Of a stretch of DNA of 44,877 nt, positions 21,933-44,737 are shown one piece after another. Each line of letters opens with the position of its first letter. Within the stretch, counting starts at the first letter, position 1. Origin of the DNA: an uncultured Lachnospiraceae bacterium. Its GTDB lineage: Bacteria; Bacillota; Clostridia; Lachnospirales; Lachnospiraceae. Location of the stretch: the NCBI GenBank assembly GCA_947623805.1, contig CANQHZ010000022.1, positions 1 to 44,877 of the forward strand, read 5' to 3'. A program made the translations under genes and the position numbers. The notes under the pieces were generated by a model, which was not told the DNA's origin, searched no databases, and saw only the letters and a program-made list of their open reading frames with translations.

Positions 21933-21944
21933 TCGTTATTCTCC

Positions 21945-23363
21945 TTAATAGGCATTTTTGTTGACAAAGCCCTTAAAAAATGTCAAGAACAAAATCTTAA
22001 TGTCAAATGCCATAGACCAGTTTTCAATATAATACAGGTCGTATTCTATGCGTTTTCTGATGGATGTGTCTCCACGATATCCATTTACCTGAGCCCAGCC
22101 CGTAATCCCGGGGCGAACCTGGTGCTTTATCATATACCTTGGTATTTCTTCTTTAAATTTTTCGACGAAAAGTGGTCTTTCGGGACGCGGTCCCACAAGG
22201 CTCATATCGCCTTTGAGCACATTGAAAAGCTGCGGCAGCTCATCTATGCTTGTCTTTCGCATTATCCTGCCCACTTTAGTCACTCTCGGGTCGTTTTTTT
22301 TGGTCCACCCTTTCTTTTCATCCTCGTCGCGCTGCACTTCCATGCTGCGGAATTTGTACATTTTAAACGGCTTGTTGTGGATGCCGACTCTCTCCTGCTT
22401 GAATATAAGAGGCCCTCTGCTCGTAGTCTTGACACATATTGTCGCTATAAGCATTACCGGCGAAAACAGCACAATAGCAAACAGCGAGCCAAAAATATCA
22501 ACCATTCTTTTCATCAACCTGTTTGCCGTATTGGTAAGCGGCACATGTCTTATATTTACTACCGCAAGACCGCCTAAATCCTCAAGATACGGGCGGCTCG
22601 GTATGACACTGTTGTAATCGGGAATAAATTTTGTATGCACTCCCGATTTTTCACATATATTGACTATGGACTCCAGGCGGTCATAATCCTCCAGCGCCAG
22701 CGTAATAGCTATCTCGTCAAGCTTGTTTTCGGGCAGAATTATCTCAAGATTTTCTATATCGCCGATAACCTTTATCCCTTTGTATACCGCGCCTCTCGGG
22801 ACATTATTGTCAAGTATGCCGCACACGACATAGCCCCATTCGGGATTTGCTTTGATTTTGTTGATATATTCCTCGGCTGCGCGTGAGTACCCCACAAGCA
22901 AAATGTGCTTTATATTATAGCCCTTTTTTCTGAAATAGCGCAGCGTCACTCTCACGGACTTGCGCATCGCGGAGCTTAAGAAAATATTTATGCCGTAAAA
23001 TACGCCCACCATGCCTCGAGAAAAATCAGGTATGTTTATCGCATAAAGCACAACCATTATCGCGAGAAGTCCTACCGTATTCGCTTTGATTATATTAAAA
23101 ATCTCGTATGTTGTTTTCGATGTGCGCTTTGATGAATACATATCGAAAACATTATATAAAATCAGATAGCACGGGACAATAGCGATAAGCGCAACAAAAT
23201 AGGTCTGCGTCGGCAAAACGCCTGTACCATTCTCTATCTCCTTAACAAGACCACTCAGCCACAAAAACCAAGCAAGGCTGTATGACGCCGCCGTCACAAG
23301 CGCATCAAGCAGGACTAGCAGTCTGTTAAAATACTTCTGGTTATCTTTTATCAATCGCCCCAC
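21945..23363 (-). CDS. Undecaprenyl-phosphate sugar phosphotransferase (WbaP/WcaJ-type initiating transferase)
   Basis: A 472-aa protein: four or five N-terminal membrane segments, a Rossmann-like middle domain ([15 protein letters not shown] ... [11 protein letters not shown]), a further membrane segment near 285-305, and the bacterial sugar transferase domain ([47 protein letters not shown]). It starts a polysaccharide repeat unit by moving a hexose-1-phosphate, often glucose or galactose, from UDP-sugar to undecaprenyl phosphate at the inner leaflet. The start may be GTG 23363 or TTG 23354; the G-rich Shine-Dalgarno fits TTG slightly better. First gene of the unit with LCP. Confidence 0.92.
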
Positions 23364-26377: not shown

Positions 26378-26465
26378 AACGCAATCCTCCAAATTCTTCC
26401 CTATCATAATGATTATAAATATCTATGGCGCCTGTGTCAAACATTTATCCCCGATTATACAAAAA

Positions 26466-28391: not shown

Positions 28392-29459
28392 CTAACAAAC
28401 ACCCAAAAATTCTTTTATCTGCCTATCCATACATTCCGCGACATCGCCATTATCAAAATACAGTTTTGTCCATTCTACAATTTTATCCATTGTAGTTTCT
28501 ATATTCCACCGTGGTTTCCAGTTCAATGTCTTTTTCAGTTTGGAACAGTCTAGCTTTAAAAAATTGGCCTCATGCGGACCGCCGTCATAAATATTCTTCC
28601 ATGACACATTTCCGCCCACGGCCTGATTCCATTTTTGGCAAAACAATGTAACCAATTCACCTGTAGTCAGGCAATCAGCATCGTCAGGACCGACATTGTA
28701 GCTGCCGGATATGCTCTTATTTTCATATTGTGCCTGTGCCAGCTGAAGATATACGGCAATAGGCTCCAATACATGCTGATATGGCCTGATTGAATACGGG
28801 TTCCTGACTATTATCTCACGCTTTTCCTTGACTGCCCTTATACAGTCGGGAATTATACGGTCATTTGCAAAATCTCCCCCGCCTATCACGTTGCCTGCCC
28901 TTGCCGTAGAAACAGCAATATCCCTGTCAGCAAAAAAAGAATTTACATAGCTGTATGTGACCAGTTCTGAACATGATTTAGAATTGGAATATGGGTCAAA
29001 ACCTTTTAATTCCTCATTTTCACGGTATCCCCATTCCCACTCCCTGTTTAAGTATACTTTGTCCGTCGTCACATTGACAAATGATTTCACGGAAGGCGTC
29101 AGACGTATACATTCCAGTACATTTACAGTTCCCATGACGTTTGTTTCATACGTGTATACCGGATTTTTATACGAATCGCGTACAATCGGCTGCGCCGCCA
29201 TATGTATCACTACCTCAGGATTCACTTCTTCAAATATTTTTTTTAAATGATTCAAATCACGTACATCGCCTATAATCGAATTGATACGGCCATGAAGACC
29301 GGCTAAGCTGAATAAATCTGGTTCTGTGGGCGGTTCCAATGCGTACCCTGTAATCTGCGCCCCTGCTAACAGTAGCATTCGGCACAGCCAGGAGCCTTTA
29401 AAGCCTGTATGGCCTGTTAGTAGTATTTTTTTGTTTTTAAACCATGATAGCTGTAACAA
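28392..29459 (-). CDS. rfbG: CDP-glucose 4,6-dehydratase
   Basis: A 355-aa extended SDR. NAD-binding TGHTGFKGSW is at residues 15-24, the catalytic TTDKVY with YSNSKSCSE supplies Thr, Asp and the Y-x3-K pair, and RAGNVIGGGDFANDR and RPYQHVLEP are typical of RfbG. It converts CDP-glucose to CDP-4-keto-6-deoxyglucose, the substrate of RfbH. The start is TTG 29459 with AAGGAGG 10 nt upstream. It is the last gene of the locus, far from rfbF and rfbH, which head it. No clear U-tract terminator follows. Confidence 0.93.
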   Translation of the reverse strand: MLQLSWFKNKKILLTGHTGFKGSWLCRMLLLAGAQITGYALEPPTEPDLFSLAGLHGRINSIIGDVRDLNHLKKIFEEVNPEVVIHMAAQPIVRDSYKNPVYTYETNVMGTVNVLECIRLTPSVKSFVNVTTDKVYLNREWEWGYRENEELKGFDPYSNSKSCSELVTYSYVNSFFADRDIAVSTARAGNVIGGGDFANDRIIPDCIRAVKEKREIIVRNPYSIRPYQHVLEPIAVYLQLAQAQYENKSISGSYNVGPDDADCLTTGELVTLFCQKWNQAVGGNVSWKNIYDGGPHEANFLKLDCSKLKKTLNWKPRWNIETTMDKIVEWTKLYFDNGDVAECMDRQIKEFLGVC

Positions 29460-29531
29460 AGCGTTGCTCCCTCCTTACTAGCAAATCTTCCGATCTGTTT
29501 ACAGATGCTTTTATCGTATGATTTTACCAGA

Positions 29532-30017
29532 TCACTTACGTATTTTCTGCTTATATGCCCAGAATTTATTCAATATAAAATTCAATGGAATAGTAATCAC
29601 AAGGTTGATTAATGGAGCAATTATTTCAGGAATATGAATAACTTCAACCCACAAGGCAAGCAGTATATTGCTCAATAACAGCCCTGTACCTGCATAAGAA
29701 ACAAAAGTTTTCAGCAATGCCTTAAATTTTTCATACTTTTCTGTTGAATTAAAATTGAAAACATATTTGCTGTTCCAATAATATGCATTTAAAACACTTG
29801 CAAAGAAGCCCACTAAACTAGCAAACAAGTAATGAGCGCCCAGTATTACAAAAACAACATAGACAAAGTAAGAAATCAGCGTATTTAATAATCCTACTAT
29901 ACCAAATTTTATAAATTGCTGTAATTTTTTCATCATGCTGCTGTCCGATTTTAAATGAAAAATTTTAACAACAAAAAACTCAATTGCATTATCAATAAAA
30001 TTCCAAACTTGACTCAT
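29532..30017 (-). CDS. GtrA-like membrane protein (partner of the GtrB-like transferase)
   Basis: About 161 aa with four membrane segments and the family start IKFGIVGLLNTLISYFVYVV, then NAYYWNSKYVFNF and a basic C-terminus FWAYKQKIRK. GtrA proteins are proposed flippases for undecaprenyl-phosphate-sugar. The open frame extends to GTG 30053, but ATG 30017 fits family length better; neither has a strong Shine-Dalgarno. The GtrB-like enzyme is the next gene upstream, so the two form a GtrAB side-branch module. The base composition is clearly more AT-rich than the genes at 5-20 kb. Confidence 0.82.
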   Translation of the reverse strand: MSQVWNFIDNAIEFFVVKIFHLKSDSSMMKKLQQFIKFGIVGLLNTLISYFVYVVFVILGAHYLFASLVGFFASVLNAYYWNSKYVFNFNSTEKYEKFKALLKTFVSYAGTGLLLSNILLALWVEVIHIPEIIAPLINLVITIPLNFILNKFWAYKQKIRK

Positions 30018-30189
30018 TATAGTACACATCCAAAAATTATTTGATTTGCTCACATATATTTTGAAATATCACAATTATCAATCAATGACATTCACCAATT
30101 CCAAGCTATGATTAAATTACATTTATTCATCTTTTATACCCTACATTCCATACCCTCGCCTCACCAAACAGTAATTCGCATTATACGAA

Positions 30190-31173
30190 TTATTTTACAA
30201 TACTTTCACTCTTATCCTCAAAATTAAGTCTTTCTTCTTCAATAACCAATGGTCGTTTTGTCACCCTAGTTAAAATTTCTCCGATGTACTCTCCAAGAAT
30301 CCCCAAAAACATCAATAATATGCCTCCAATAAAAAAAATTCCTATTAAAAGCGGGGCTTGACCCATGTCAAAATACATCCAATTTTTAAGTTTCCATACA
30401 AGGTAGAATATGGCTACTGCAAAGCTTATAAGTGAAACAATAAACCCCCATAATATAGCCAATTTCAACGGTACTTTTGAAGTATTTATAAAAGAACTTA
30501 CTGCATACTGAAAGTAATACCTCAAACTATATCCTGACTTTCCCCTCAGTCGTTTAGGCTGCCTGAATTCGATAAATGCCACCTGATATCCCAAATCCGC
30601 TATTAAATGCCTCAGGCTTGGTTCAGGTTCATCCAGCGCTTTTAACTGTGAAATTACTGTTTGGTCATACAATCCAAATCCAGTAGTTTGTTCATATTCA
30701 GGAACTTCTGAATAGTGCTGGATAATTTTATAATACAATCCCCTAATATTATACATCAACGCATTTTCATCGGACTCTGTTTTTTTTCCTAATACCACTT
30801 TATATCCTTGATTCCATTTTTCAATAAACTGTGGAATCAGCTCCGGTGGATCTTGAAAGTCACAGGCCAGCAAAATCGCACAGTCTCCATCTGCCTGAAA
30901 TAATCCATTTGCCGCATTTCTTAGCCCGCCAAAATTACGTACATTTCTAATTATTTTTATTCTTTTATCCTCACCAGCCAGCCGCTTTAATATATCCCAT
31001 GTTCTATCGTCAGAATGGTTATCCACTAATATATGCTCATATTCATATGGCAGTTTTTCCATAATTTCTTTTACCGCCCTAACCATGAGTTCCACATTTT
31101 CCTCCTCGTTAAAACAAGGATTGACAATGCTTATTTTTTTTCTAAACTTATCATTTATGATGACATTATCCAT
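30190..31173 (-). CDS. GtrB/DPM1-like polyprenyl-phosphate glycosyltransferase
   Basis: A 327-aa GT2: KISIVNPCFNEEENVELMV, LVDNHSDDRTW, LLACDFQDPPEL (DxD), RGKSGYSLRYY, then two C-terminal membrane segments (about 230-255 and 275-300). This is the dolichol-phosphate-mannose-synthase-like family that loads a sugar onto undecaprenyl phosphate, here with a GtrA partner next to it. Side-branch sugars of surface glycans are commonly added through this route. Its start overlaps the end of the FkbM gene by 19 bp. Which sugar it carries is unknown; the deoxysugar made by this locus normally travels as a nucleotide sugar, so another donor is also possible. Confidence 0.9.
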   Translation of the reverse strand: MDNVIINDKFRKKISIVNPCFNEEENVELMVRAVKEIMEKLPYEYEHILVDNHSDDRTWDILKRLAGEDKRIKIIRNVRNFGGLRNAANGLFQADGDCAILLACDFQDPPELIPQFIEKWNQGYKVVLGKKTESDENALMYNIRGLYYKIIQHYSEVPEYEQTTGFGLYDQTVISQLKALDEPEPSLRHLIADLGYQVAFIEFRQPKRLRGKSGYSLRYYFQYAVSSFINTSKVPLKLAILWGFIVSLISFAVAIFYLVWKLKNWMYFDMGQAPLLIGIFFIGGILLMFLGILGEYIGEILTRVTKRPLVIEEERLNFEDKSESIVK

Positions 31174-32150
31174 CTCTCAATAAAACCTCCATGCTTTTGT
31201 TTGTGCAGGAAAAAGAAATTCGTCTGGACAGTTTCATCGTCTATAGCTAAAATTCTCTTCAGCTTTCCATCCTGCATAGCTGCGCAATCATACCCAAGTG
31301 TCTGCATATATGATATGACATCATTCGGATGATAGCCGAAACGTTTTGCATGCTTTCGCAATAATTCAGTATAAACAAATGGTTTGTAATTTAAAAGCGT
31401 GTTTTCAGCGCCTTTCAAAACTGCCTTTTCGTTTCCCTCCACATCTATTTTCATAAAATCCAACTGTGCTATTTTATTTTTTTCAATAAAGCTATCAACT
31501 GTTGTTACGGAGCACATAACCTCTTGAATATCTGTTTCTCCAGTATATTCACCAACTTTATTACTCCGTTTTTTATAAAACGCATCTTCATTAGGCACCA
31601 TTGACGCTGCTTCATTTGAAGCTGGAACAAAAAATCTAATTTCACCTTCAGTATCGGACATCCCCATATTGTATGATTTATAATGTCCGAAATCAACATG
31701 ATTAAGCTTTTCTGTTTTTTTAAGCCGTGCATATGTATCTGGCACCGGTTCAAAAAGATAATATTCCAGTTCTTTATGCGTTTGATATAAATCTAAGCTG
31801 TATAAACCGACATTGGCACCAATATCAAACACTATACGGTTTCCTGCTTGAGAAAGGAATTCACCAACCACCATCATTTCCGCACTTTCAGGATCCCCTG
31901 CCGTCAATAATTCCACTTCTGCACGGCAAATTGCCTGCGTAAAATCAAAATATATCTTTGTTCCATTTTTCCGTTCCAAAATACAGCCATCTTTTGTAAT
32001 CATGATGCTTTTAATCTCATCATTATTTGTCAATACTTCTTCTATCTCTGCCAAATAATGTGTATAATTTTCCCGCATTATTTGAAAATATAGCCTCTTA
32101 TCTACCCCCCCCCCGTATATAAATTTGTTTCGAAATTCCGCCATCCTCAT
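31155..32150 (-). CDS. FkbM-family methyltransferase with in-frame G10 tract (phase-variation candidate)
   Basis: A 331-aa SAM-dependent methyltransferase: FDIGANVGLYSLDLY near 117, YYLFEPVPDTY, and LDFMKIDVEGNEKAVLKGAE, the FkbM signature. FkbM enzymes O-methylate small molecules and sugars. The minus strand has ten consecutive G (32105-32114) at codons 13-16 (Gly-Gly-Gly-Val), 37 nt into the gene. A one-base slip there would shift the frame and kill the protein; the frame is open at length 10. AGGAGG lies 9 nt before ATG 32150. Located between the epimerase and GtrB, it probably methylates the glycan made here (inference). Confidence 0.88.
   Translation of the reverse strand: MRMAEFRNKFIYGGGVDKRLYFQIMRENYTHYLAEIEEVLTNNDEIKSIMITKDGCILERKNGTKIYFDFTQAICRAEVELLTAGDPESAEMMVVGEFLSQAGNRIVFDIGANVGLYSLDLYQTHKELEYYLFEPVPDTYARLKKTEKLNHVDFGHYKSYNMGMSDTEGEIRFFVPASNEAASMVPNEDAFYKKRSNKVGEYTGETDIQEVMCSVTTVDSFIEKNKIAQLDFMKIDVEGNEKAVLKGAENTLLNYKPFVYTELLRKHAKRFGYHPNDVISYMQTLGYDCAAMQDGKLKRILAIDDETVQTNFFFLHKQKHGGFIERWIMSS
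32105..32114 (-). repeat. Homopolymer tract (G10 in the coding strand)
   Basis: Ten C on the plus strand, ten G on the coding strand, near the 5' end of the FkbM gene. No other run of this length and type was seen in the window. Confidence 0.95.
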
Positions 32151-32171
32151 TTACGTATTCCTCCTATAAAA

Positions 32172-33227
32172 TTAATCTTTCTCTTTCAAGCTTCTATATA
32201 CTCTTTCAAATCCTTGTTTCGCTTCAAACAGATGCTCCCATCCCAATTCCATTAATTTGTATTCAACAGGTTTATTATCTTGATTCAATGAATTATTTAA
32301 ATAAGTATCTGCAGCATTCCTTTGGGCAAACGTAACTTTTAGTTTTTCTCTTGGAATCTCTGCAATTATTTCAGCCAATTCTTTAATTGACAAGAATTGA
32401 TTCGTATTAGTCACGTTATAAGCAGCACCACCATTACCTTTCAGCAAAAGCAACAAAAATGCCGCTGTTGCATCTGCTATATAGCAAAACGGACGCCGTG
32501 CGCTACCATCACTGTAAAGTACAATATCTTCATTCTTTAAAGCATTTTTTATAAAACCTGCAAAAACCCTTGGATCATTCTCCACATCCATAGTAGGTCC
32601 ATAAGTGTGCCCAATCCTCGCAATAACCGTACGAACACCATATTCTTTATAAAATGCGCTGCATAAAGTTTCACCAAGTCTTTTGCTTTCCCCATAGCAG
32701 CTATGAGTTTCTAAAGGATCCATATACCCCAGAGTGTCTTCTGTAATATCTTCGTTTCCATCTACCCGCCCATAAATATCACCACTACTAAAAAATAAAA
32801 AACATTCTGCTTTATGCTGCAAGGCAAACTTTAAAAGCTGATATGTTCCTATTGCATTTGGCTCTATAACTTCCACCGGATTAGTATTATAATACCTTGG
32901 ATTTGCCAAACCGGCAGCATGGACAATATAATCCATGTGTGGCAATTTTTTATTTACCTCTAAAATGTCCGCATTTATAAACTTAAAATCAGGATGTTCC
33001 CAATATTGAGAAAATCTTTTCTTTGCTTTATCTATATTTCTTCCTTGCGCTATTACCTGAACTGAAACATGTTTTTCGATATTTAGGTACATCAAAAAAT
33101 ATACGATATAAGATGCAAGCATCCCATAAGAACCCGAAATAAAAACTTTTTTTCCGTCAAACTTATTCCACTCATATCTGCGGTTAAAGATATTTTCCAT
33201 GTCTTCCCGCAACACTTTATTTATCAT
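32172..33227 (-). CDS. NAD-dependent epimerase/dehydratase (extended SDR, nucleotide-sugar enzyme)
   Basis: A 351-aa extended SDR: KVFISGSYGMLASYIVYFL for dinucleotide binding near residue 27, YIVHAAGLANPRYY, FFSSGDIYG, SCYGESKRLGE with the Y-x3-K pair, and RIGHTYGP. It belongs with the UDP-glucuronate-decarboxylase/RmlB-like nucleotide-sugar enzymes. In a CDP-dideoxyhexose pathway it could be the C4-reductase (paratose/abequose synthase type) or a 2-epimerase, or it could act on a different sugar. The start overlaps the C-methyltransferase stop by 11 bp. The exact reaction cannot be told from motifs. Confidence 0.85.
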   Translation of the reverse strand: MINKVLREDMENIFNRRYEWNKFDGKKVFISGSYGMLASYIVYFLMYLNIEKHVSVQVIAQGRNIDKAKKRFSQYWEHPDFKFINADILEVNKKLPHMDYIVHAAGLANPRYYNTNPVEVIEPNAIGTYQLLKFALQHKAECFLFFSSGDIYGRVDGNEDITEDTLGYMDPLETHSCYGESKRLGETLCSAFYKEYGVRTVIARIGHTYGPTMDVENDPRVFAGFIKNALKNEDIVLYSDGSARRPFCYIADATAAFLLLLLKGNGGAAYNVTNTNQFLSIKELAEIIAEIPREKLKVTFAQRNAADTYLNNSLNQDNKPVEYKLMELGWEHLFEAKQGFERVYRSLKEKD

Positions 33228-34437
33228 CGTCCATCTCCTCTGAAAATAAATTTATAATATGATTTTTTAGCCCCATGTTTTTTATTTTTTTCTCAATAGC
33301 ACTATAAGCATACTGTGACGCAATCACTATCGGAAGACACTCCTCTGCCCGTAGTTCATCAGGGGATAACACTCTATTACCGTATACTTCCATTCCAGTG
33401 TAATTCAAATTTGAATCAATCACACCCTTTATCAACTTTTCAGAAATTATATTTAATTGGACCAACATTGCTGTATTGGTTCCGGCCCCCCATACATAAT
33501 ATCCCTTTCCCGTATCATAGTCATACATTCTCTTTCGCATCCGTGTAGCAAAATCCGCGCATTGTTCCAAATATGCACTCATACCACCATTCGTATCATC
33601 AGTATATTCTTTTTGTTTATAATTTAGATAACAATCAGACTCTGCTTTTCTCCAGAGACTGATGGAATTACCTGCTAATCCCATAATGTTAATATGACTT
33701 CTTTCAAGCCGTTCAAACACATAACCTTCTAAATTCATAAGATACTGCAAACTTTTTTTATCAAAGTAATTGATATGCTCTATAGAAAACTCCTGATATA
33801 AGTCCTTATGTTCACAAAACAAAGAGACATCAGGCACAACAATTATAATCCTCCCCCCTTGTTTAAGCATCGTCCTACATTGCTGAATGCTTGCATGTAT
33901 ATCCATTAAATGTTCAAGAACACCGCATAAAATAATAATATCAAACTTCTTTTGACGTAATTCCGGAATATCATCTCCTAATTCGCCCTGGTAAACCTGT
34001 ATGCCATAATAATCCATCGCATAATCGCAATTTTCCTGAGATGGCTCAACTCCATACAAATTGCAATATCCTGCTACCTTTAGCTCATTTAGAAGACCTC
34101 CAAACGCACATCCAACATCCATAATATCAGCCTCAAGCGGTACAGTTTTTTCAATCAGTCTGACTACATGACGATACAATTCGATAAGATCCGGTGATAT
34201 GCTGTGATAGTTGCCTCCCTCGTATCTGGACATAAGCTCATAATAATCATCCAACGGCATTGATTCTTCAATATTCCCTGCGTAATATAATCCGCATTTT
34301 GAACATGAAAAAACATCATACCCTACAAATGGAACAATTAACCTACAAGGCGAAAAATCACGTTTGAATATTTTTTCATTGCTTTCGTTAATCGTGCCAC
34401 AGCACGGACATTTTTCTCTCATTATCCTTTTTAACAT
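33217..34437 (-). CDS. Sugar C-methyltransferase-like protein with zinc-binding N-terminus
   Basis: A 406-aa protein. N-terminal zinc ribbon (CPCCG near residue 10, CSKCG near 45), a SAM-binding Rossmann domain (IMDVGCAFGGLLNEL near 104, CGVLEHLMDIHAS, GGRIIIVVPD), and a C-terminal Rossmann-like domain (GYYVWGAGTNTAMLVQLN ... VIASQYAY). This zinc finger/methyltransferase/C-terminal arrangement matches the C-methyltransferases of deoxysugar pathways (TylC3/NovU type, PF08421-PF13489-PF08484). These methylate carbon next to a keto group. It may methylate the keto sugar or ring ketone made in this locus (inference). AAAGGAG lies 12 nt before the start. Confidence 0.82.
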   Translation of the reverse strand: MLKRIMREKCPCCGTINESNEKIFKRDFSPCRLIVPFVGYDVFSCSKCGLYYAGNIEESMPLDDYYELMSRYEGGNYHSISPDLIELYRHVVRLIEKTVPLEADIMDVGCAFGGLLNELKVAGYCNLYGVEPSQENCDYAMDYYGIQVYQGELGDDIPELRQKKFDIIILCGVLEHLMDIHASIQQCRTMLKQGGRIIIVVPDVSLFCEHKDLYQEFSIEHINYFDKKSLQYLMNLEGYVFERLERSHINIMGLAGNSISLWRKAESDCYLNYKQKEYTDDTNGGMSAYLEQCADFATRMRKRMYDYDTGKGYYVWGAGTNTAMLVQLNIISEKLIKGVIDSNLNYTGMEVYGNRVLSPDELRAEECLPIVIASQYAYSAIEKKIKNMGLKNHIINLFSEEMDDDK

Positions 34438-34468
34438 TTATTATTAATTCTCCTTTCAAGTATCCATC

Positions 34469-34987
34469 CTATGGTTGTTTAATCGTTTCTTCGCCAGTTA
34501 ATGCATTAATGCCTAATTCTACTTTATTATCTTCATGTCGCTGAATTAATTCTATCCAGTTTCCTTCTGGATCCCTGCAAAAACAGCATAAATTATTATT
34601 GCACATTTTGTGTATCTTTGTTTTTTGTACTCCCTGTTTGCTTTTGATTACTTCTACTGTCCTATATATGTCATCAATTTCAAAAGCCAAATGCCCCATG
34701 CCCGTCATAAAAATAGGATAGTCCAAAGGGAGCTGCGGTATTTCATTCAACTTCGACGTTATCTTGACCAGCTCCAGCATATCACCTTGACCATTCTGCC
34801 TACCATATGGCGTAATAAGCTTTGTTGTCACTATTTCTGCACACGTAACTCCTAATAATTCATCAAGCAAATTATTTTGATCAGGGGCATTGCTACATAT
34901 TGTTACCATATCAAAAACAGTCTTATAAAATGCCTCTAATCGCAAAATATCTTTAACATAAATTCCCATGTGTCGAATTGAAATCAT
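34469..34987 (-). CDS. Vicinal oxygen chelate (VOC/glyoxalase-fold) enzyme
   Basis: A 172-aa protein with two glyoxalase half-domains and the four metal ligands in the expected places: His6, Glu72 (MLELVK), His99 (MGHLAFEI) and Glu146 (NWIELIQ). VOC enzymes use a metal to do isomerisation, epimerisation or lyase chemistry. Small VOC proteins that epimerise 2-epi-5-epi-valiolone (CetB, ValD) accompany DHQ-synthase-like cyclases in aminocyclitol pathways; here such a cyclase is two genes away. That parallel is an inference. AGGAG lies 10 nt before ATG. Confidence 0.82.
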   Translation of the reverse strand: MISIRHMGIYVKDILRLEAFYKTVFDMVTICSNAPDQNNLLDELLGVTCAEIVTTKLITPYGRQNGQGDMLELVKITSKLNEIPQLPLDYPIFMTGMGHLAFEIDDIYRTVEVIKSKQGVQKTKIHKMCNNNLCCFCRDPEGNWIELIQRHEDNKVELGINALTGEETIKQP

Positions 34988-35062
34988 GCACTTATTACTC
35001 CTCTTGTTTTAATACTTATTTATATAATCAAATTTAGAGCTAATCCATGCATAGTAAATCAC

Positions 35063-35821
35063 TTAAGCTTTCAGATTAGCTCCCGCATCGGCAACTACAA
35101 CACTCCCTGTCATAATTGCCGAATCCTCCGATATCAAGAACAATACAGTCCTTGCCACTTCTTCCGGCATAATTACTTTACCCAACAGATTTTGGCTTTT
35201 AAAACGTTCAAAGTTTTTGTTTTCCCACAAATCAGTCGCTGTAGGGCCAGGACAAAGACAGTTGATGCGCACATCTGGAGCATAATTTTTTGCCAATAAC
35301 TGCGTAAATTGAATCAGAGCCGCTTTTGAGGAAGCATAGGCATAATTTGTTCTGCCATATACAGCGCTTTGTAATCCTACATTTGATGCAATATTTAATA
35401 CGCATCCCTTACTTTCTCTTATCATTGGCAAAAACGCTTTGCAGCAATATACTGTTGCATTTACATTAGTTTCAAATACTGTCTCCCAGTTGTCTTCATT
35501 TATTTCCTCTAATGCCGCCGTTTTTAATACGCCAATACTATTGACAAGAACATCCAACCGCTGAAACTTTTCCAAAATTATTTCACGTAACTTCTCTATT
35601 TCATCTTTCTGCGTCATGTCACATGAAATGAAAACAGCCTGCCCGCCTTTTTTACGTATTTTTTCTTCTTCAGCCAGTCCCCGCTTTTTACCTCGCCCTA
35701 CCAGAATAACCGAAGCACCTTCATCAGCAGCCAATTCTGCAGCTGCGGCTCCAATACCCGATGTACCGCCTGTTATCAATACGATTTTTCCATCCAGCTT
35801 TCCCATAATTTCTTCTTTCAT
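35063..35821 (-). CDS. Short-chain dehydrogenase/reductase (classical SDR)
   Basis: A 252-aa classical SDR: ITGGTSGIG for cofactor binding near residue 16, VNSIGV in place of NNAG, NIASNVG with catalytic Ser/Asn and YAYASSKAA (Y-x3-K), then CPGPTATDLW. The C-terminal SVVVADAGANLKA is typical. Substrate unknown; as part of the run with the cyclase and VOC enzyme it may reduce or oxidise a ring or side-chain ketone, and it is also a candidate for the YerF-like reduction after TPP-dependent acetyl transfer. The start may be 35821 or 35806 (MGKLDGK). Confidence 0.88.
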   Translation of the reverse strand: MKEEIMGKLDGKIVLITGGTSGIGAAAAELAADEGASVILVGRGKKRGLAEEEKIRKKGGQAVFISCDMTQKDEIEKLREIILEKFQRLDVLVNSIGVLKTAALEEINEDNWETVFETNVNATVYCCKAFLPMIRESKGCVLNIASNVGLQSAVYGRTNYAYASSKAALIQFTQLLAKNYAPDVRINCLCPGPTATDLWENKNFERFKSQNLLGKVIMPEEVARTVLFLISEDSAIMTGSVVVADAGANLKA

Positions 35822-35873
35822 ACTTCATTCCAATTCACTTGTTTTCCATATTAGCTTCTCATCATCCATTCTG

Positions 35874-36968
35874 TTAAAAAGCATTCTTCAACAAGACAAT
35901 CAATTCTTCCACAGCTTTCTCTACTTCACTTCGTTCCAAATCATGTACTATCTCCAGCTCCAAACCATCATTTTTAAACAAAACCGCCGTATAGTTCATA
36001 TCAACCTGTTTCTTGTCTTTCCTTATTGCCTTCATAATCTCATCCATATCAGACAGACTGCTAAGTTGAAATCCATTTTTTTCTTCCAGCAGCGGTATCG
36101 GCAGAATTTTCAAAAGCAAATCTTGAATGTCATTTTTCAGATGTTCGCTAAGCCATCCTCTCCTGTATGATACCTCATCCGCAACAATAGTGCCCATCGC
36201 AACAGCCGTTCCATGAGGAATTGCATAATTTGTCACGGTTTCAAAAGCGTGTCCAAAAGTGTGTGCAAAATTTAAGTGTATACGCACTCCGCGGTCATAC
36301 TCATCCGCCTCTATAAACGCTTTTTTAAATTCCAAGGATTTTCGGACATATTCTTCAATTTTGTGTCCATCTTTTTGAAGTATATACGGCAAATCCTGAC
36401 GAAGCTTCACCAAGTCCCTGCTGCCTGCCATAACATTGAATTTTACGACTTCTCCCATTCCGCTCATGAAATCTATCTGTGACAGTGTGTCAAAAAATTT
36501 AGGACAGATATGCAGCTCATCAGGCGGATAAAATGTTCCCAAAAGGTTCTTAAACTTTTTATAATTCAGCGATGTCTTGCTCCCTATACAGCTATCACAC
36601 GATGCCAACAGCGTAGTCGGTACAAATACCCATTTAATCCCCCTGTACAGTATATTTGCAGCAAATCCCGTAATATCCTGAATAATCCCGCCGCCAATGG
36701 AAATCAAAGTAATATTTCGCTTTCCCGGAAGCTCTGTCATTTTTTCACATATGCTTAGTGCCGTCTCAATTACCTTATTTTCTTCCTTGGCTTCTATCAG
36801 CATAATAGCTTCTGACGGTATATGCTCAATCAGTTTGTCCTTATACAGTTCATAGACATTTTTATCAATCACCCATAGGGATTGATCGATTACCGCAAGT
36901 TTTTTGATAAAATCGAAATCCTTTTCAAAGTATACTTGATATGTTTTTGAATGCGCCTTTATGTCCAT
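35874..36968 (-). CDS. 3-dehydroquinate-synthase-like sugar-phosphate cyclase
   Basis: A 364-aa protein of the DHQ synthase superfamily: GGGIIQDITGFAANILYRG near 92, PTTLLASCDSCIGSKTSLN near 117, KNLLGTFYPP near 140. The zinc ligands are Glu173 (MGEVVKF), His236 (AHTFGHAFE) and His252 (IPHGTAVA), with the 16-residue His spacing of the family. DHQ synthase uses NAD+ and Zn2+ to cyclise DAHP; relatives make 2-epi-5-epi-valiolone, 2-deoxy-scyllo-inosose and others. It differs from housekeeping AroB (SCIGSKTSLN versus SSVGGKTGVN) and no shikimate genes surround it, so a special cyclitol or another ring product is more likely than shikimate synthesis. GAGGGAG lies 8 nt before ATG. Confidence 0.85.
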   Translation of the reverse strand: MDIKAHSKTYQVYFEKDFDFIKKLAVIDQSLWVIDKNVYELYKDKLIEHIPSEAIMLIEAKEENKVIETALSICEKMTELPGKRNITLISIGGGIIQDITGFAANILYRGIKWVFVPTTLLASCDSCIGSKTSLNYKKFKNLLGTFYPPDELHICPKFFDTLSQIDFMSGMGEVVKFNVMAGSRDLVKLRQDLPYILQKDGHKIEEYVRKSLEFKKAFIEADEYDRGVRIHLNFAHTFGHAFETVTNYAIPHGTAVAMGTIVADEVSYRRGWLSEHLKNDIQDLLLKILPIPLLEEKNGFQLSSLSDMDEIMKAIRKDKKQVDMNYTAVLFKNDGLELEIVHDLERSEVEKAVEELIVLLKNAF

Positions 36969-36982
36969 GATTAAATCTCCCT

Positions 36983-38779
36983 CTAAATCATTTTTATATA
37001 CATATTTTTCTCAAGTTCTTCTCTTGGCAGAAACGGAGCCAAGTCCTCCAACGGCGGTGAGACCAATGTCCCGTCCTCCAATTTTTTAGTCGCTGATTTC
37101 GGTTCATATATCTGCTCTGTATCTGTGAAGACTTCTGCAATAAGCGGTCCGTTATAGTCCAATGTAGCTTTGATAAAATTCTTTAATTTATCATTACTCC
37201 CACACGAAAAATATTTATACCCATACGCCCATGCCAGCTTTTCCATATTAGGAAAAGAAAGGTCTTGGCTTTCAGGCCCAATGCCTACTGGCTTTCTCCC
37301 GCCAAAAACATTTCTTTGTGTTAAGCGTATCTGATGATAACCTTGATTATTTATTACATATATTTTTATAGGAAGCTTATTTGTGATTATAGTCTGCAGC
37401 TCTTGAAGATTCATCTGAATGCTTCCATCCCCTGCAATACATATAAGCGGTTTCTTTTCATCGGCTATACAGACTCCTATCGCTGCGGGCAGTTCATATC
37501 CCATCGAAGACAATGCACAATTCATGATAAATCTTTGATTTTCTTTTATGATATATGCCTGACTCCCGACTACACTTGCGGAGCCGTTTGCTACAACAGT
37601 ATTCATCCCTTTCGGTATCGCTTTACTCAATTCATTTATAAACGCATATACGTTGCACTTTTCGCTATCCTCATAATGCTTACTTTGCACAACCGGATAT
37701 TTTTGTTTCCAAAGCCGACATTGTGATATCCATTCTTTTTTTGGTTCAATATCTTTACCGACTTTCTGCAGCATTTCCTCCATAAAGCTTTTGATATCAT
37801 AGCAGACAGGCATATCCACTCTTATAGTAGGCTTTTTTAATTCTTCTCTGTCAATGTCAACCGCTATTACGAACGCCTCTCTTGCCCATGTATTAACATC
37901 GTATCCAACTTGATAGATGTTCAGTCGGCTTCCTAAGGATATCAACAAATCACTGTTCTGAACAGCAAAATTTCCAGCTCTGTCTCCCATAATTCCTGCT
38001 CTACCCACATAAAAGCAAGAATCCGTCGGCAGCAAATCAATACTGTTCCATCCTGTTACGACAGGTATCTGCAGTTCTTCTGTCAATTTACGAAAAATCT
38101 CATATCCGCCTGATATCCTAATCGCATTTCCGCCATATAAGACAGGTCTTTTTGCTTCTTTTATTTTTTCCCTAATTTTGTCCCAATCTACGAAATCATC
38201 TGTGTCACACTTTTCATTATATTGAAAAGAAGACAGATTATCAGTCTCAATATAGCTGCCCTGAATATCCAACGGTATGTCCACCCAGCATGGACCCGGA
38301 CGCCCATTTACGGCGATATATAAGGCTTTGTCCAGACAAAACTTAATTCTGCGGGGTTCTTCAAGCATCTCGCAATACTTCGTCATTCCTGAAATCGCAC
38401 CGATAATATCAAATTCCTGATTTCCCAAGGTACGAAGCTTTAATCCACTGTGCTTTACTGTCAAAGTGCTTTTGGTCTGTCCTGAGATAACAAGCATTGG
38501 AATGGAATCCATATACGCGCCTGCGACCCCGTTTAACGCATTGATGGCGCCGGGACCGCTCGTCACGCAGACAACGGCTATTTTATTGTTCACACGCGCA
38601 TAAGCCTCCGCCGCTATAGCGCTTGCCTGTTCATGGTGATTATATGTGCAGTGCAATCCTGCTTTGTGTCCGAATGCGTCATTAAGGTGCATGGCGCCTC
38701 CACCCACCACTGTAAAAACATCTGAAATCCCATGTGAGACAAGATATTCAGCAATATAGTCGGCAACTCTAATTTTCAT
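36983..38779 (-). CDS. Thiamine-diphosphate-dependent enzyme, acetolactate-synthase-like (YerE-like candidate)
   Basis: A 598-aa protein with the three domains of the acetolactate synthase/pyruvate oxidase family. The catalytic Glu50 lies in NHHEQASAIAAEAYAR, a middle domain includes NGRPGPCWVDIPLD, and the C-terminal ThDP motif is AGDGSIQMNLQEL ... VINNQGY. These enzymes decarboxylate a 2-oxo acid and pass the carbanion to an acceptor. No regulatory subunit gene is near, so valine/isoleucine synthesis is unlikely. In Yersinia, the related YerE adds the two-carbon unit of pyruvate to CDP-4-keto-3,6-dideoxyglucose to make yersiniose; the required rfbF, rfbG and rfbH are all in this locus. That role is an inference. 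It sits 14 bp from the cyclase gene. Confidence 0.88.
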   Translation of the reverse strand: MKIRVADYIAEYLVSHGISDVFTVVGGGAMHLNDAFGHKAGLHCTYNHHEQASAIAAEAYARVNNKIAVVCVTSGPGAINALNGVAGAYMDSIPMLVISGQTKSTLTVKHSGLKLRTLGNQEFDIIGAISGMTKYCEMLEEPRRIKFCLDKALYIAVNGRPGPCWVDIPLDIQGSYIETDNLSSFQYNEKCDTDDFVDWDKIREKIKEAKRPVLYGGNAIRISGGYEIFRKLTEELQIPVVTGWNSIDLLPTDSCFYVGRAGIMGDRAGNFAVQNSDLLISLGSRLNIYQVGYDVNTWAREAFVIAVDIDREELKKPTIRVDMPVCYDIKSFMEEMLQKVGKDIEPKKEWISQCRLWKQKYPVVQSKHYEDSEKCNVYAFINELSKAIPKGMNTVVANGSASVVGSQAYIIKENQRFIMNCALSSMGYELPAAIGVCIADEKKPLICIAGDGSIQMNLQELQTIITNKLPIKIYVINNQGYHQIRLTQRNVFGGRKPVGIGPESQDLSFPNMEKLAWAYGYKYFSCGSNDKLKNFIKATLDYNGPLIAEVFTDTEQIYEPKSATKKLEDGTLVSPPLEDLAPFLPREELEKNMYIKMI

Positions 38780-38799
38780 ACAAATTCGTTTCCTTTATT

Positions 38800-40410
38800 C
38801 TACACATAATAGCTGTCTGTTATAAAAGTTATCTTTTCTTTCAGCCCTGAACGTTCCAGACTGTTTTTAACATCCTCATTGATTTCCTGTGCGCGTTCCT
38901 TTGTAAACGTATATTCCATATTGGCATTCACGTAATTTGTTGTCCTCGCCATGTCATATCCGTCAAAACCGGCAAGCGCAATGTCAGACACTTCACTGTC
39001 TTTAAATATTTTTAACAGCATAAATAACGGATTATCCCGCATATGTGCTTTTTCATCCAACAGCCTGCCATAATTTAAAACATAATCGAATGTTTCGGAG
39101 GAACTTGTTATGTTTGAAGTTGCGATTATCCTTGTTTCCGAGCCTTTAGCCTTCAATCGCGTTGCCATCTGAACATACCTTTTGGCATTTGACATAAACA
39201 GGAAATCGACCTTATACAAATCAGGCAAAAAATTAACCGAAATTACTAATGGATTATATTTTTTCATGTACTCTAGAATTCTTTCTTTTTGTAAATACAC
39301 ATTATTGCCTGAACCTAAAACCAAAACATGCCTATTATGCAATATTCCGCTTAGTTCAGCATATACTTCTGCGTCTTCACATTCCTTGTTTTGATATTCC
39401 ATATATAGTTCTTCGATATAATTTTCATCATAAAGAAGCTTTTTCTCCGAACATATACTTGCCAGTATTTTGTTTATTGATTTTACAGATAATGTCCCCT
39501 TATCCTGTAGGAATGCCACATAATTCGGATGGCAGTCATTCGAAGCCGAAAGGAAAAATTTAAAACTGTACCCCCAATGTATCTGACGATATATATCCAG
39601 CATTGTGACATCAATAGCCTCCAACAGCTGATGTGTACGATAATTTTTTCCATTATGTTCATTCATATACATAGACAACAGCTCCGTCGGCGCATTGCCT
39701 GCGCTTTTTCCCATGCCGTATAAAGTTCCATCTATAATCAGGGTTCTGTCCAGTTCCTTTTCCAGCACTTCTATGCAGTTAGCATATGCCAGCTGGAAAT
39801 TGTTATGTGCATGATAACCTAATCCAATCTCAGGTTTCAACTGTCGGTCTGCCATGACAAAATAATGCTCTAACTGCTGCTTATGCAATAAACCATATGT
39901 GTCAACAAGTGAAAACGCATAGGGGCATATATCATTTACCAATTTGACAAGCTCCGCAAATTCTTCATCATTATAGCTAGTAATAGATACTGCCTGCGCA
40001 AAGACAGCATATCCTTTTTGCTTTAGTAAACTGCAAAAGCGAATGGCCTCATGCATCTTTCCCTTTTTAAAAATGACGCGTATGCCATCAAGATAAGATT
40101 CACTGCACATCTGCACATTCTCTATTCCACAAGTTCCAAAATCTATCATGCCAACCACCATGGAACTGTCTCTCTTTAACTCACCATATGAACGTTCTAC
40201 GCTTTTCGTATCAGGAAATATACTGCGTTCGTAATCATATTCCCTCCGCTCATCTAAAAAACCGACCTCAATGATATCCAATCCGGCACTCACAAGACGT
40301 TCAAAAATAGTTACAATATTATCATGCCCAAATTTCCAGTCATTAAGATAGCCGCCATCTCTCAATGTACAATCCAGTAATTTGATTTGTCCCATAGATT
40401 TTGTGTCCAT
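38800..40410 (-). CDS. DRE-TIM aldolase (HMGL-like) fused to an unrecognised Rossmann-like domain
   Basis: A 536-aa protein. Residues 8-290 are a DRE-TIM metallolyase domain: LLDCTLRDGG with Asp13 and Arg17, VDTYG, and GYHAHNN with His200 and His202 as metal ligands. Relatives cleave or form 4-hydroxy-2-oxo acids with pyruvate (4-hydroxy-2-oxovalerate aldolase) or condense acyl-CoA. Residues 360-536 form a second domain beginning HVLVLGSGNNVYL, with VDFLFMSNAKRY and DIALAGFDGYDM; it looks nucleotide- or sugar-binding, but I do not recognise it. It is next to the TPP enzyme, so it could supply or extend the 2-oxo acid (inference). AAAGG precedes ATG 40410 at a short distance. Confidence 0.8.
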   Translation of the reverse strand: MDTKSMGQIKLLDCTLRDGGYLNDWKFGHDNIVTIFERLVSAGLDIIEVGFLDERREYDYERSIFPDTKSVERSYGELKRDSSMVVGMIDFGTCGIENVQMCSESYLDGIRVIFKKGKMHEAIRFCSLLKQKGYAVFAQAVSITSYNDEEFAELVKLVNDICPYAFSLVDTYGLLHKQQLEHYFVMADRQLKPEIGLGYHAHNNFQLAYANCIEVLEKELDRTLIIDGTLYGMGKSAGNAPTELLSMYMNEHNGKNYRTHQLLEAIDVTMLDIYRQIHWGYSFKFFLSASNDCHPNYVAFLQDKGTLSVKSINKILASICSEKKLLYDENYIEELYMEYQNKECEDAEVYAELSGILHNRHVLVLGSGNNVYLQKERILEYMKKYNPLVISVNFLPDLYKVDFLFMSNAKRYVQMATRLKAKGSETRIIATSNITSSSETFDYVLNYGRLLDEKAHMRDNPLFMLLKIFKDSEVSDIALAGFDGYDMARTTNYVNANMEYTFTKERAQEINEDVKNSLERSGLKEKITFITDSYYV

Positions 40411-40446
40411 ATACCTTTCAAAAAATTATAGTTCATATTCAGTCCC

Positions 40447-41787
40447 TTATATTTCTGCCGCCTCTATTATTGTTTTTGCCATATAGTCAATCATCTCGTC
40501 CGTCATTCCCGGATATACGCCTACCCAGAATGAATCATTCATAATTCTGTCCGTATTTTCCAGTGAACCCACGACTCTGTAGCCTTCTTTGCTTTCGCGC
40601 ATTCCGTCAAAACATGGATGCTTTACCAGATTGCCCGCGAATAACATTCTCGTCTGAATGCCTTTGCTTTCTATATACTGTACAGCCTTATTTCTGCTCA
40701 CTCCAGTTTTGCATGTTATTAAAAAGCCAAACCAGCTCGGTTTTGAATTGTCACATGCGACGGGCAGTATAAGCTTGTCCCCCGTTCCTGACAACGCATT
40801 TTTCAGTCTTTCAAAGTTATGGTGTCTTCTTTTCACAAAGCTTGGAAACTTTTCAAGCTGTGCGCAGCCTATTGCCGCCTGCATATCGGTAGCCTTTAGA
40901 TTATATCCAAAATGCGAGTACACATATTTGTGGTCATACCCAAGCGGAAGTTCACCATATTGCTTGTCAAAACGATGCCCGCATAAGTTATCATGACCTG
41001 AAGGGCATACGCAATCACGCCCCCAATCTCTAAACGAACGTATTGCCTTATGCAGCAGTGCATTGTCTGTGTAAACCGCTCCGCCTTCGCCCATTGTCAT
41101 ATGATGCGGCGGATAAAAGCTAGATGTGCCGATATCACCTATCGTGCCCGTAAATTTTTCTACGCCGTCTATAGTGTACTTAGAGCCTAACGCATCGCAG
41201 TTATCCTCTACAAGCCACAGATTATGTCTGTCGCAGAAAGCCTTAACCGCCGACAGGTCAAACGGATTGCCAAGCGTGTGCGCTATCATAACCGCCTTGG
41301 TCTTTTCGGATAATGCTTCTTCAAGCATGGTTGTATCTATATTGTACTGAGGAATAGTCACATCGACAAACACCGGCACTGCTCCGTATTGTATTATAGG
41401 CGCAACCGTGGTAGGAAATCCCGCCGCCACGGTAATCACCTCATCGCCGCGTTTTATGCTTTTTTCCCCAAGCAGAGGCGATGTCAACGCCATAAAGGCA
41501 ATCAGGTTTGCCGATGAACCCGAGTTTACAAGTGAGCAGTATTTTATTCCAAGATAATCAGCAAACTTTCTTTCAAATTCGTCAGTATATCTGCCTGATG
41601 TCAGCCAAAACTCCAACGCGCTGTCTACCAAGTTAATCATTTCAGCACTGTCATAGACTCTGGACGCATACGGTATTCGCTGTCCTTCTTCAAATTCTTT
41701 TTTCGTATTATGATATGTGTCTGCATATTCCCTCACCATAGCAAGAATGTCCGCTCTTGCCTGCTGCTCTGTCTTATTTTCAAACAT
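40447..41787 (-). CDS. rfbH: CDP-6-deoxy-4-keto-glucose 3-dehydrase (E1, PLP/[2Fe-2S])
   Basis: A 446-aa DegT/DnrJ-fold enzyme in which the usual PLP-binding lysine is replaced by His (FYPPHHMTMGEGGAV, His228/229), the hallmark of E1 3-dehydrases. The [2Fe-2S] cysteines are visible at Cys196 (EDNCDAL) and in RDCVCPSGHDNLCGHRF (Cys259, Cys261, Cys269). It removes the C3 hydroxyl of CDP-4-keto-6-deoxyglucose to give CDP-4-keto-3,6-dideoxyglucose together with an NADH-dependent flavin/iron-sulfur reductase (E3). No E3 gene lies in the window. AGAGGAG lies 6 nt before ATG. It follows rfbF by 29 bp. Confidence 0.95.
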   Translation of the reverse strand: MFENKTEQQARADILAMVREYADTYHNTKKEFEEGQRIPYASRVYDSAEMINLVDSALEFWLTSGRYTDEFERKFADYLGIKYCSLVNSGSSANLIAFMALTSPLLGEKSIKRGDEVITVAAGFPTTVAPIIQYGAVPVFVDVTIPQYNIDTTMLEEALSEKTKAVMIAHTLGNPFDLSAVKAFCDRHNLWLVEDNCDALGSKYTIDGVEKFTGTIGDIGTSSFYPPHHMTMGEGGAVYTDNALLHKAIRSFRDWGRDCVCPSGHDNLCGHRFDKQYGELPLGYDHKYVYSHFGYNLKATDMQAAIGCAQLEKFPSFVKRRHHNFERLKNALSGTGDKLILPVACDNSKPSWFGFLITCKTGVSRNKAVQYIESKGIQTRMLFAGNLVKHPCFDGMRESKEGYRVVGSLENTDRIMNDSFWVGVYPGMTDEMIDYMAKTIIEAAEI

Positions 41788-41816
41788 AATATTCTCCTCT
41801 TATATCGCCTACTGCC

Positions 41817-42602
41817 TTATTGAGACTGTTTCCACACCATCCATGGCGCATCACCTGATGAAATCATTTTTTCCAGCTGCTGCATATCTCTTTGTGTATC
41901 CATGCATTTCCAGAAACCAAAATGTCTATATGCCATCAGCTGGCCGGCAGCCGAAACCATCTCAAGCGGCCTTTTTTCAAACACAGTAGTATCATCTTCC
42001 AGATAATCAAATATTTCCGGATTCAGTACCATATATCCAGCATTTACAACTCCGCCATCCTTTTTATTTTTTTCGCGGAATTTGCTTATTATGCCATTAT
42101 CATCAATTTCAAGGACACCAAACTGCTGTCCTACATTTACAGCCGTTATCGTGGCAATTTTACCATGTGATTTATGAAATTCAGCCAATTCCCGTATATT
42201 TACATCCGAAACGCCATCGCCATACGTAAGCATAAATGCTTCATCCCCTATATAGGGCTGGACTCTTTTTATTCGCCCTCCTGTCATAGTATTTAATCCG
42301 GTATCAACAATAGTAACTTTCCACGGCTCCGCGACATTTGAATGTATCTCCATACGGTTCTCTTTTGTAAAATCATATGTTATATCGCTGTTATACAGGT
42401 AATAATTGTTAAACCATTCCTTAATGATATGCTGCTTATATCCGGCACATATTATAAATTCATTAAAACCGTAATGTGAATACTCTTTCATAATATGCCA
42501 TAAAATCGGTTTCCCGCCTATTTCAATCATTGGTTTCGGTTTCAAATGGCTGTATTCACTTATACGCGTACCGTATCCGCCTGCTAAGATTACTACCTTC
42601 AT
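41817..42602 (-). CDS. rfbF: Glucose-1-phosphate cytidylyltransferase
   Basis: A 261-aa nucleotidyltransferase of the RfbF type: VVILAGGYGTRISEYS for nucleotide binding, KPKPMIEIGGKPILWHIMK, LTYGDGVSDV for the metal-binding Asp, VNAGYMVLNPEIFDYL, and WKCMDTQRDM near the end. It joins CTP and glucose-1-phosphate to CDP-glucose, the entry step to CDP-dideoxyhexoses. It is the first gene of the locus, behind a perfect TATAAT and a leader of about 107 nt. AAAGGA lies 10 nt before the ATG. Confidence 0.95.
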   Translation of the reverse strand: MKVVILAGGYGTRISEYSHLKPKPMIEIGGKPILWHIMKEYSHYGFNEFIICAGYKQHIIKEWFNNYYLYNSDITYDFTKENRMEIHSNVAEPWKVTIVDTGLNTMTGGRIKRVQPYIGDEAFMLTYGDGVSDVNIRELAEFHKSHGKIATITAVNVGQQFGVLEIDDNGIISKFREKNKKDGGVVNAGYMVLNPEIFDYLEDDTTVFEKRPLEMVSAAGQLMAYRHFGFWKCMDTQRDMQQLEKMISSGDAPWMVWKQSQ

Positions 42603-44661: not shown

Positions 44662-44737
44662 TGCAACCACCACCTAAACATAATCTTTCCCTCTGCCTGC
44701 CCTATCCCATCCCCGCCTCTCTTAACTTAATGATTTT

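Follow-up and report, generated by a model that had tools for sequence, protein, structure and literature searches.

Which sugar is made by a gene run that joins the genes for a cytidine diphosphate (CDP)-activated 3,6-dideoxyhexose to an acetolactate-synthase-like thiamine pyrophosphate (TPP) enzyme, an aldolase fusion, and a sugar-phosphate cyclase? We addressed this question for contig CANQHZ010000022.1 of an uncultured Lachnospiraceae bacterium (assembly GCA_947623805.1), all 44,877 nucleotides of which we refer to as the window. A first-pass annotation had reported a thirteen-gene glycan locus there, and this stands: 13 genes lie on the minus strand at 28392..42602, with intergenic gaps of −19 to 136 bases. 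Read from 42602 to 28392, they are rfbF, rfbH, the aldolase fusion, the TPP enzyme, the cyclase, a short-chain dehydrogenase/reductase (SDR), a VOC protein, a methyltransferase, an epimerase, an FkbM protein, a GT2 glycosyltransferase, a GtrA protein, and rfbG. The answer we favor, tentatively and at somewhat short of an even chance, is that the operon makes a CDP-3,6-dideoxyhexose with a branch at C4 that is built by the aldolase, attached by the TPP enzyme, and closed to a carbocycle by the cyclase. The gene identities, associations, and folds described below are findings of the analysis. The genes on which this answer turns are the following, three of which we call ALD, TPP, and CYC.

38800..40410, minus strand: aldolase fusion of two domains (ALD), from an HMGL-like aldolase match and fold comparison
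36983..38779, minus strand: YerE-like thiamine diphosphate ligase (TPP) whose subtype occurs chiefly next to the cyclase, from its 8rph match, trees, and discriminating positions
35874..36968, minus strand: AroB-related sugar-phosphate cyclase of the 3-dehydroquinate (DHQ) synthase family (CYC); TIGR04425, 422.1 bits (cutoff 400)
41817..42602, minus strand: rfbF, glucose-1-phosphate cytidylyltransferase; TIGR02623, 377.8 bits (cutoff 300)
40447..41787, minus strand: rfbH, CDP-4-keto-6-deoxyglucose 3-dehydrase; NF011936, 722.3 bits (cutoff 423)
28392..29459, minus strand: rfbG, CDP-glucose 4,6-dehydratase; TIGR02622, 441.2 bits (cutoff 278)

We judged the three rfb identities by the curated NCBIfam cutoffs, and all three genes scored above them, as the first-pass annotation had it. 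Its aldolase fusion, DHQ-synthase-like cyclase, SDR, and VOC genes were also borne out, by matches to HMGL, TIGR04425, PF13561, and PF00903, respectively.

The TPP enzyme and its partners

In a structure-chain search, the best solved relative of TPP, a three-domain protein, was 8rph (E = 2e-121, 409 bits, residues 2-593), which we take to be the YerE-like ligase JanthE, known for accepting a broad range of donors and ketones. The next chain was 5ahk at 234 bits, and other acetohydroxyacid synthase (AHAS) chains scored 214 bits or less. The alignment with 8rph extends through the C-terminal tail of TPP (DGTLVSPPLEDL), a tail that varies among related loci and is missing in the genome's other AHAS-type protein, L128. 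At one motif, 8rph has CDG and the window TPP has GDG. The best NCBIfam model for TPP was the AHAS model TIGR00118, which it matched at 341.7 bits against a cutoff of 538, and the two further AHAS-type matches in the genome were 30 to 32% identical to it. The 8rph match, the TIGR00118 score, and the distance of the paralogues led us to reject TPP as a biosynthetic acetolactate synthase. Judged on its sequence, TPP is YerE-like, and the earlier label of acetolactate-synthase-like enzyme holds at the superfamily level only. The first-pass annotation had staked its parallel with YerE on this enzyme not grouping with biosynthetic AHAS, and neither the 8rph match, the paralogues, nor the tree described below placed it there. 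JanthE is described as YerE-like in a 2025 review (PMC12247030), according to which no subclass of the decarboxylase superfamily other than the YerE-like enzymes is known to act on isolated ketones.

We then looked at the neighborhoods of related enzymes. Scanning with four TPP enzymes turned up 569 confirmed relatives, the best 80 of which were taken as loci L046 to L125. Many of their contigs are short, so absences from these loci are soft. Among the 80, rfbH was found in 62, which also fits the YerE parallel, rfbG in 51, rfbF in 50, a GT2 gene in 50, ALD in 22, CYC in 15, and an SDR in 15. After further loci had been added, we classed all of them by the genes within 7 kb of TPP (or of ALD): 17 had TPP and CYC, 11 had TPP and ALD without CYC, 59 had TPP only (counting L057, whose aldolase lies just outside the 7-kb limit), and 21 had ALD without TPP. 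ALD was present in all 17 of the TPP-CYC loci, at least one of rfbF, rfbG, and rfbH was visible in 14, and a CMP-sugar-type cytidylyltransferase was seen in none. The SDR follows the cyclase, being present in 15/17 TPP-CYC loci, 1/11 TPP-ALD loci without CYC, and 1/59 TPP-only loci. An NAD-dependent reductase of about 305 amino acids, which we assume to be the yersiniose ketoreductase, was found in 45/59 TPP-only loci and 9/17 TPP-CYC loci; it was not found in the window, where the best match, to the epimerase gene, reached 24% identity and 42 bits (limit, 80 bits).

Searches that started from CYC led to the same neighborhood. CYC matches occurred in 2/398 genomes of the phylum, 2/392 of the order, and 2/397 of the family, the window's own genome being counted each time, and in 6/189 genomes of the order of G361. 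In the seven other genomes, TPP lay beside CYC in 7/7 and ALD was present in 6/7, the seventh locus lying on a 3,015-base contig; these seven are not independent, since the L061 and L092 records recur among them and some come from one genus. TPP lay beside CYC in every cyclase locus that we fetched. Contigs that carry the set of ALD, CYC, and TPP came from Lachnospiraceae, other Clostridia, Selenomonadaceae, Anaerovibrio, and Treponema, and the names of many of these contigs mark them as metagenome-assembled genomes from gut or rumen. The recurrence of similar neighborhoods across families indicates that the gene set is not due to chance, and the module's presence in Treponema and Selenomonadaceae makes the Gram-positive setting first proposed for it too narrow. 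Two YerE-type loci, L086 and L117, are on contigs labeled Methanomassiliicoccaceae archaeon, for which misbinning is possible.

The TPPs that lie beside CYC also resemble one another. They formed one group in a quick tree (17 plus the truncated L066; support 89, unstarred) and again in a second quick tree (17 rows including L066; support 96), in which L066 was labeled cyclase type though its contig shows no cyclase, L051 was left out as a near copy, and 29/57 TPP-only rows were retained. The L066 contig has a visible kinase, SDR, VOC gene, and epimerase. Of 527 comparable TPP positions, 12 separated 18 cyclase-type rows from 66 others with zero overlap, in counts that leave out L051, L144, L132, L038, JanthE, and AHAS and on an alignment that lacks L037, L044, L141, L127, L128, and 5ahk. 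Five of the 12 (197, 200, 206, 377, and 570) coincide with 18 residues taken to line the AHAS substrate channel (p about 2e-5); this value is rough, since neighboring sites are non-independent, and the result is suggestive only. Four landmarks agree with one offset for the AHAS numbering. A general rule that a cyclase always comes with its own TPP subtype was rejected, being broken by loci L132 and L141, whose contigs both end just past CYC. At the L132 contig end, an open reading frame after the cyclase (about 11086-11631) reads by eye like an IS66-type transposase.

Residues 1 to about 330 of ALD form a DmpG-type (HMGL family) pyruvate aldolase domain with the DmpG fold and metal-site residues, and it scored below the cutoff of the DmpG equivalog model (TIGR03217, 81.6 bits against 286). 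Residues from about 345 to 536 form an extra domain of roughly 195 amino acids with a putative Maf/SteA/HPPK/CstII fold, a candidate GT42/Maf-type glycosyltransferase domain; these fold calls come from structure-match lists, and other folds remain compatible with them. A Pfam search with this C-terminal domain gave no credible match. Among the 21 loci with ALD and no TPP, a cytidylyltransferase was present in 13 and a KdsC/HAD phosphatase in 14. Such fusions, with their putative CstII-fold domain, possibly represent an unrecognized pyruvate-aldolase route to ulosonic acids. ALD-type fusions that lack a TPP partner, in many cases accompanied by a cytidylyltransferase, are found at G000:C30:971-2566 (L019) and at L020 to L043.

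CYC exceeds the TIGR04425 cutoff and falls below that of the aroB model (TIGR01357, 256.7 bits against 305), and the genome's second AroB-family gene, on contig C14, falls below the TIGR04425 cutoff. In an alignment of 17 CYC rows that includes this other AroB-family protein, columns R109, D125, K131, N141, E173, K176, K215, R229, N233, H236, H240, H252, and K319/K320 (DHQ-synthase reference numbering) were invariant. We take these columns to be the catalytic, metal, and substrate residues of DHQ synthase. Plasmids gave three partial matches to ALD, no TPP match at 1e-90, and 48 CYC-match records, all below 60% identity, of which the 25 listed were 29 to 35% identical and, where annotated, were 3-dehydroquinate synthase or its family. 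Viral contigs held no relatives of ALD, and phages gave 23 TPP-match records, the ten listed being 28 to 30% identical and either annotated as acetolactate synthase or unannotated.

A candidate route to a cyclitol-branched sugar

From these genes we infer the substrates, the order ALD-TPP-CYC, all of the reactions, and the product. RfbF, RfbG, and RfbH would make CDP-4-keto-3,6-dideoxyglucose, as strong family evidence suggests. ALD would join pyruvate to a phosphorylated aldose, for which four carbons is the likeliest length, to give a 2-keto-3-deoxy acid phosphate. TPP would decarboxylate this presumed donor and place the acyl unit on C4, a reaction type in keeping with its family, and the tail would then be R-CO-CH2-CHOH-CHOH-CHOH-CH2-OPO3. 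If the acid keeps its 7-phosphate, the ligated branch is the skeleton of 3-deoxy-arabino-heptulosonate 7-phosphate (DAHP) with the sugar in the place of the carboxylate. CYC may act on it in the style of DHQ synthase, by oxidation, phosphate elimination, and ring closure onto the ketone left by TPP, which would place a cyclohexane ring on C4. The SDR would reduce the ring ketone, the epimerase, VOC protein, and methyltransferases may tailor the product, and GT2 and GtrA would move the sugar via undecaprenyl phosphate to the wall glycan. Before methylation, the predicted free sugar would be C12H22O8 (294.13) and its keto form C12H20O8 (292.12).

Related enzymes offer a precedent for the long branch. 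According to PMC12247030, YerE prefers pyruvate, whereas the preference of ErwE and MMAR_2332 is for longer 2-keto acids that bear hydroxyl groups; ErwE was shown to act on an analogue of its sugar, and ketone acceptance by MMAR_2332 was still pending. Caryophyllose is given in PMC5706390 as a 3,6-dideoxy-4-C-(1,3,4,5-tetrahydroxyhexyl)-hexose. Its branch implies that a YerE-type pathway can install six carbons, which corresponds to a C7 2-keto-3-deoxy acid minus CO2. Taken broadly, DHQ-synthase chemistry may have moved from the shikimate pathway to a nucleotide sugar, with a YerE-like graft of a DAHP-like chain and cyclization by an AroB paralogue, a proposal that we consider somewhat less likely than not. 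It would give cyclitol-branched surface sugars in animal-associated Lachnospiraceae, Selenomonadaceae, and Treponema, and we extend it to them with the same reserve.

Two patterns link the cyclase to the aldolase. Protein distances of ALD and CYC correlated at r = 0.96 (14 loci plus the window, n = 15, the set leaving out L046, with its cut aldolase, L051, and L132; 0/2000 permutations were as high) because two subtypes, 28 to 33% identical to each other in ALD and 30 to 38% in CYC, switch together. Distances of ALD and CYC showed no correlation with those of rfbF and rfbH (r = −0.05 to −0.08). A HAD phosphatase lay near ALD in 21/32 loci without CYC versus 2/17 with CYC (Fisher p = 3e-4) and, among TPP loci only, in 7/11 versus 2/17 (p = 0.01), in tests that ignore the kinship of the loci and with queries from L019, L022, L045, L049, L079, and L108, which match by construction. 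The scarcity of the phosphatase beside CYC looks as if the cyclase takes over removal of ALD's phosphate.

Several observations weigh against this route. TPP co-varied with ALD and CYC at just 0.41 and 0.38 (0/2000 permutations each). CYC retains the carboxylate pair of DHQ synthase (columns K215 and R229), which is a better fit to an enzyme that cyclizes a free acid; in the cyclitol synthases EEVS and DOIS, the carboxylate-binding residues of the substrate site are altered. The TPP of cyclase locus L132 falls outside the clade with mixed residues, and the fragmentary TPP of L141 is largely of the ordinary type at those positions that it covers. No rfbF, rfbG, or rfbH was visible in the fetched stretches of L047, L059, and L094, which for L094 covered over 21.8 kb. 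An FGGY kinase accompanied one CYC/ALD subtype in 6/6 loci and the other in 0/11, which the scheme explains poorly. Six of the 23 HAD-positive loci were query sources, including both HAD-bearing CYC loci, and the 80 loci were picked by similarity to alignment A1, which is led by the window TPP, so the clade statistics are biased. The FGGY kinase loci, all of one cyclase subtype, are L045, L052, L060, L084, L092, and L094.

The locus might instead house two pathways, in which TPP adds a two-carbon branch from pyruvate, as for yersiniose, and ALD followed by CYC makes a free dehydroquinate-like acid that decorates the glycan. We regard this as unlikely but keep it in the reckoning because of the carboxylate pair in CYC, the tie between ALD and CYC (r = 0.96, versus about 0.4 with TPP), the pairing of CYC with other TPP types in L132 and L141, the rfb-less loci, and the kinase. 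Against it, the 13 genes gave no match to a family that would activate a free carbocyclic acid or attach it, the changes in the channel would be needless in a TPP of the yersiniose type, and the cyclase never appeared apart from TPP in the loci fetched. An open-chain branch of the caryophyllose or erwiniose type, with ALD making the donor, TPP ligating it, and CYC serving as a dephosphorylating lyase or acting on another sugar phosphate, would suit the 11 TPP-ALD loci without CYC, seven of them with the HAD phosphatase. CYC keeps its DHQ-synthase residues, however, and the SDR tracks it, and both make this quite unlikely.

It is more improbable again that CYC makes a free cyclitol in the style of EEVS or DOIS, the ketone of which is the acceptor for TPP, with rfbFGH serving a separate dideoxy sugar. 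YerE-like enzymes do accept cyclic ketones in vitro, according to PMC12247030, and rfbF, rfbG, and rfbH went unseen in 3/17 TPP-CYC loci, but relatives of TPP accompany rfbFGH more widely than they do CYC, and ALD would be left without a role. A last reading, with TPP as an acetolactate synthase in a locus for ordinary sugars only, has in its favor that TIGR00118 is the best, sub-cutoff NCBIfam model. It is highly improbable given 409 bits for 8rph versus at most 234 for AHAS chains, the match through the C-terminal tail, and two other AHAS-type genes in the genome. The carbocyclic branch at C4 is the reading that we carry forward, and our sequence comparisons support the earlier suggestion that the sugar, branched or carbocyclic, is one not described before.

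Remaining genes and genomic setting

The other genes of the run and its closest neighbors are as follows.

35063..35821, minus strand: SDR oxidoreductase (PF13561)
34469..34987, minus strand: VOC/glyoxalase-fold protein, a variable extra (PF00903)
33217..34437, minus strand: S-adenosylmethionine (SAM)-dependent methyltransferase, a local extra (PF13489)
32172..33227, minus strand: NAD-dependent epimerase/dehydratase (PF01370)
31155..32150, minus strand: FkbM-family methyltransferase (TIGR01444)
30190..31173, minus strand: GT2 glycosyltransferase (PF00535; PgfS and ArnC model matches below cutoff)
29532..30053, minus strand: GtrA-family membrane protein (PF04138)
26528..28258, minus strand: phosphoglucomutase/phosphomannomutase adjoining the run (PF02878-02880)
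20256..23363, minus strand: LytR-CpsA-Psr protein and priming sugar transferase of wall-glycan assembly (PF03816, PF02397)

The TPP, aldolase, cyclase, and VOC genes travel together only in part: the aldolase recurs along with the cyclase, in association with TPP, and the VOC, SAM methyltransferase, epimerase, and FkbM genes vary. The VOC gene was present in 6/17 TPP-CYC loci, the epimerase in 9/17 versus 2/59 TPP-only loci, and FkbM in 7/15 CYC loci among the 80. The SAM methyltransferase lies outside the conserved set, being found in 1/80 related loci at 26% identity; it matched a general SAM-methyltransferase family, and the specific label of C-methyltransferase was not upheld. We dropped all four as core parts, as their presence differs between loci. 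GT2 is proposed to act like GtrB or ArnC in transferring the sugar to undecaprenyl phosphate, and the GtrA-family protein is proposed to be a flippase. The glycan region holds two GtrA-family genes, at 25937-26407 and 29532-30053.

The run is adjoined by the phosphoglucomutase, glycosyltransferases, the priming sugar transferase, and the LytR-CpsA-Psr protein, a setting that points to a wall glycan, and the phosphoglucomutase/phosphomannomutase could be the source of glucose-1-phosphate. The G+C content of the run is 0.382, compared with 0.462 for positions 1-28391 of the window and 0.395, also low, from 42603 to its end. No CYC match was found at the limits used in G732, the sole same-genus genome listed. 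The low G+C content and this absence fit acquisition of the run without proving it. Its nearest relative is the Lachnospiraceae contig L046, whose TPP, CYC, and visible 129 amino acids of ALD are 90 to 92% identical; the isolate name of L046, "Lapin," suggests that the host animal was probably a rabbit. A promoter scan was uninformative (71 sites versus 59.6 in shuffles). Next to the run, at 43069-44673, lies an AAA-family ATPase whose end is of the PD-(D/E)XK type, and at 15117 in L108 a protein with, by eye, a look-alike start to this ATPase comes after the TPP locus.

Comparison with known sugars and enzymes

In our searches of the open-access literature, no paper named TIGR04425, and none of the papers listed dealt with this gene set. 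If the proposed route is correct, a carbocycle would be built into a surface sugar by three ordinary enzyme types, TIGR04425 would gain a function, and carbocyclic sugars of bacteria could be modeled genetically. It would also suggest new donors for the YerE-like biocatalysts used to make tertiary alcohols and predict a residue of defined mass for bacterial glycans. The genes would likewise serve as markers for finding pathways to known carbocyclic sugars.

Among single enzymes, DmpG, a 4-hydroxy-2-oxovalerate aldolase, lacks the extra C-terminal domain of ALD, and CYC belongs, above the cutoff, to TIGR04425, "AroB-related putative sugar phosphate phospholyase, cyclizing," a name that gives the activity as putative. 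Among pathways, that of yersiniose A (rfbFGH plus YerE) shares with the window the CDP-4-keto-3,6-dideoxyglucose genes and a YerE-like TPP ligase, whereas the window adds an aldolase, a cyclase, and an SDR, and the reductase of about 305 amino acids was not found there. Caryophyllose (MMAR_2332) and erwiniose (ErwE) resemble it in that YerE-like enzymes preferring hydroxylated 2-keto acids attach long branches to C4 of a 3,6-dideoxyhexose (PMC12247030 and PMC5706390). In those texts, their branches are open-chain, unlike the predicted ring. Caryose, a 4,8-cyclo-3,9-dideoxy-nonose in PMC9671505, and bradyrhizose, whose genes PMC4743980 calls unknown before proposing an 11-gene cluster, are carbocyclic surface sugars like the one predicted here, but as sugars they differ from it in the placement of the ring. 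Both the YerE-type C4-branched sugar and the carbocyclic surface sugar are already known, and the addition of an aldolase and a cyclase is a recurrent variant of the YerE type.

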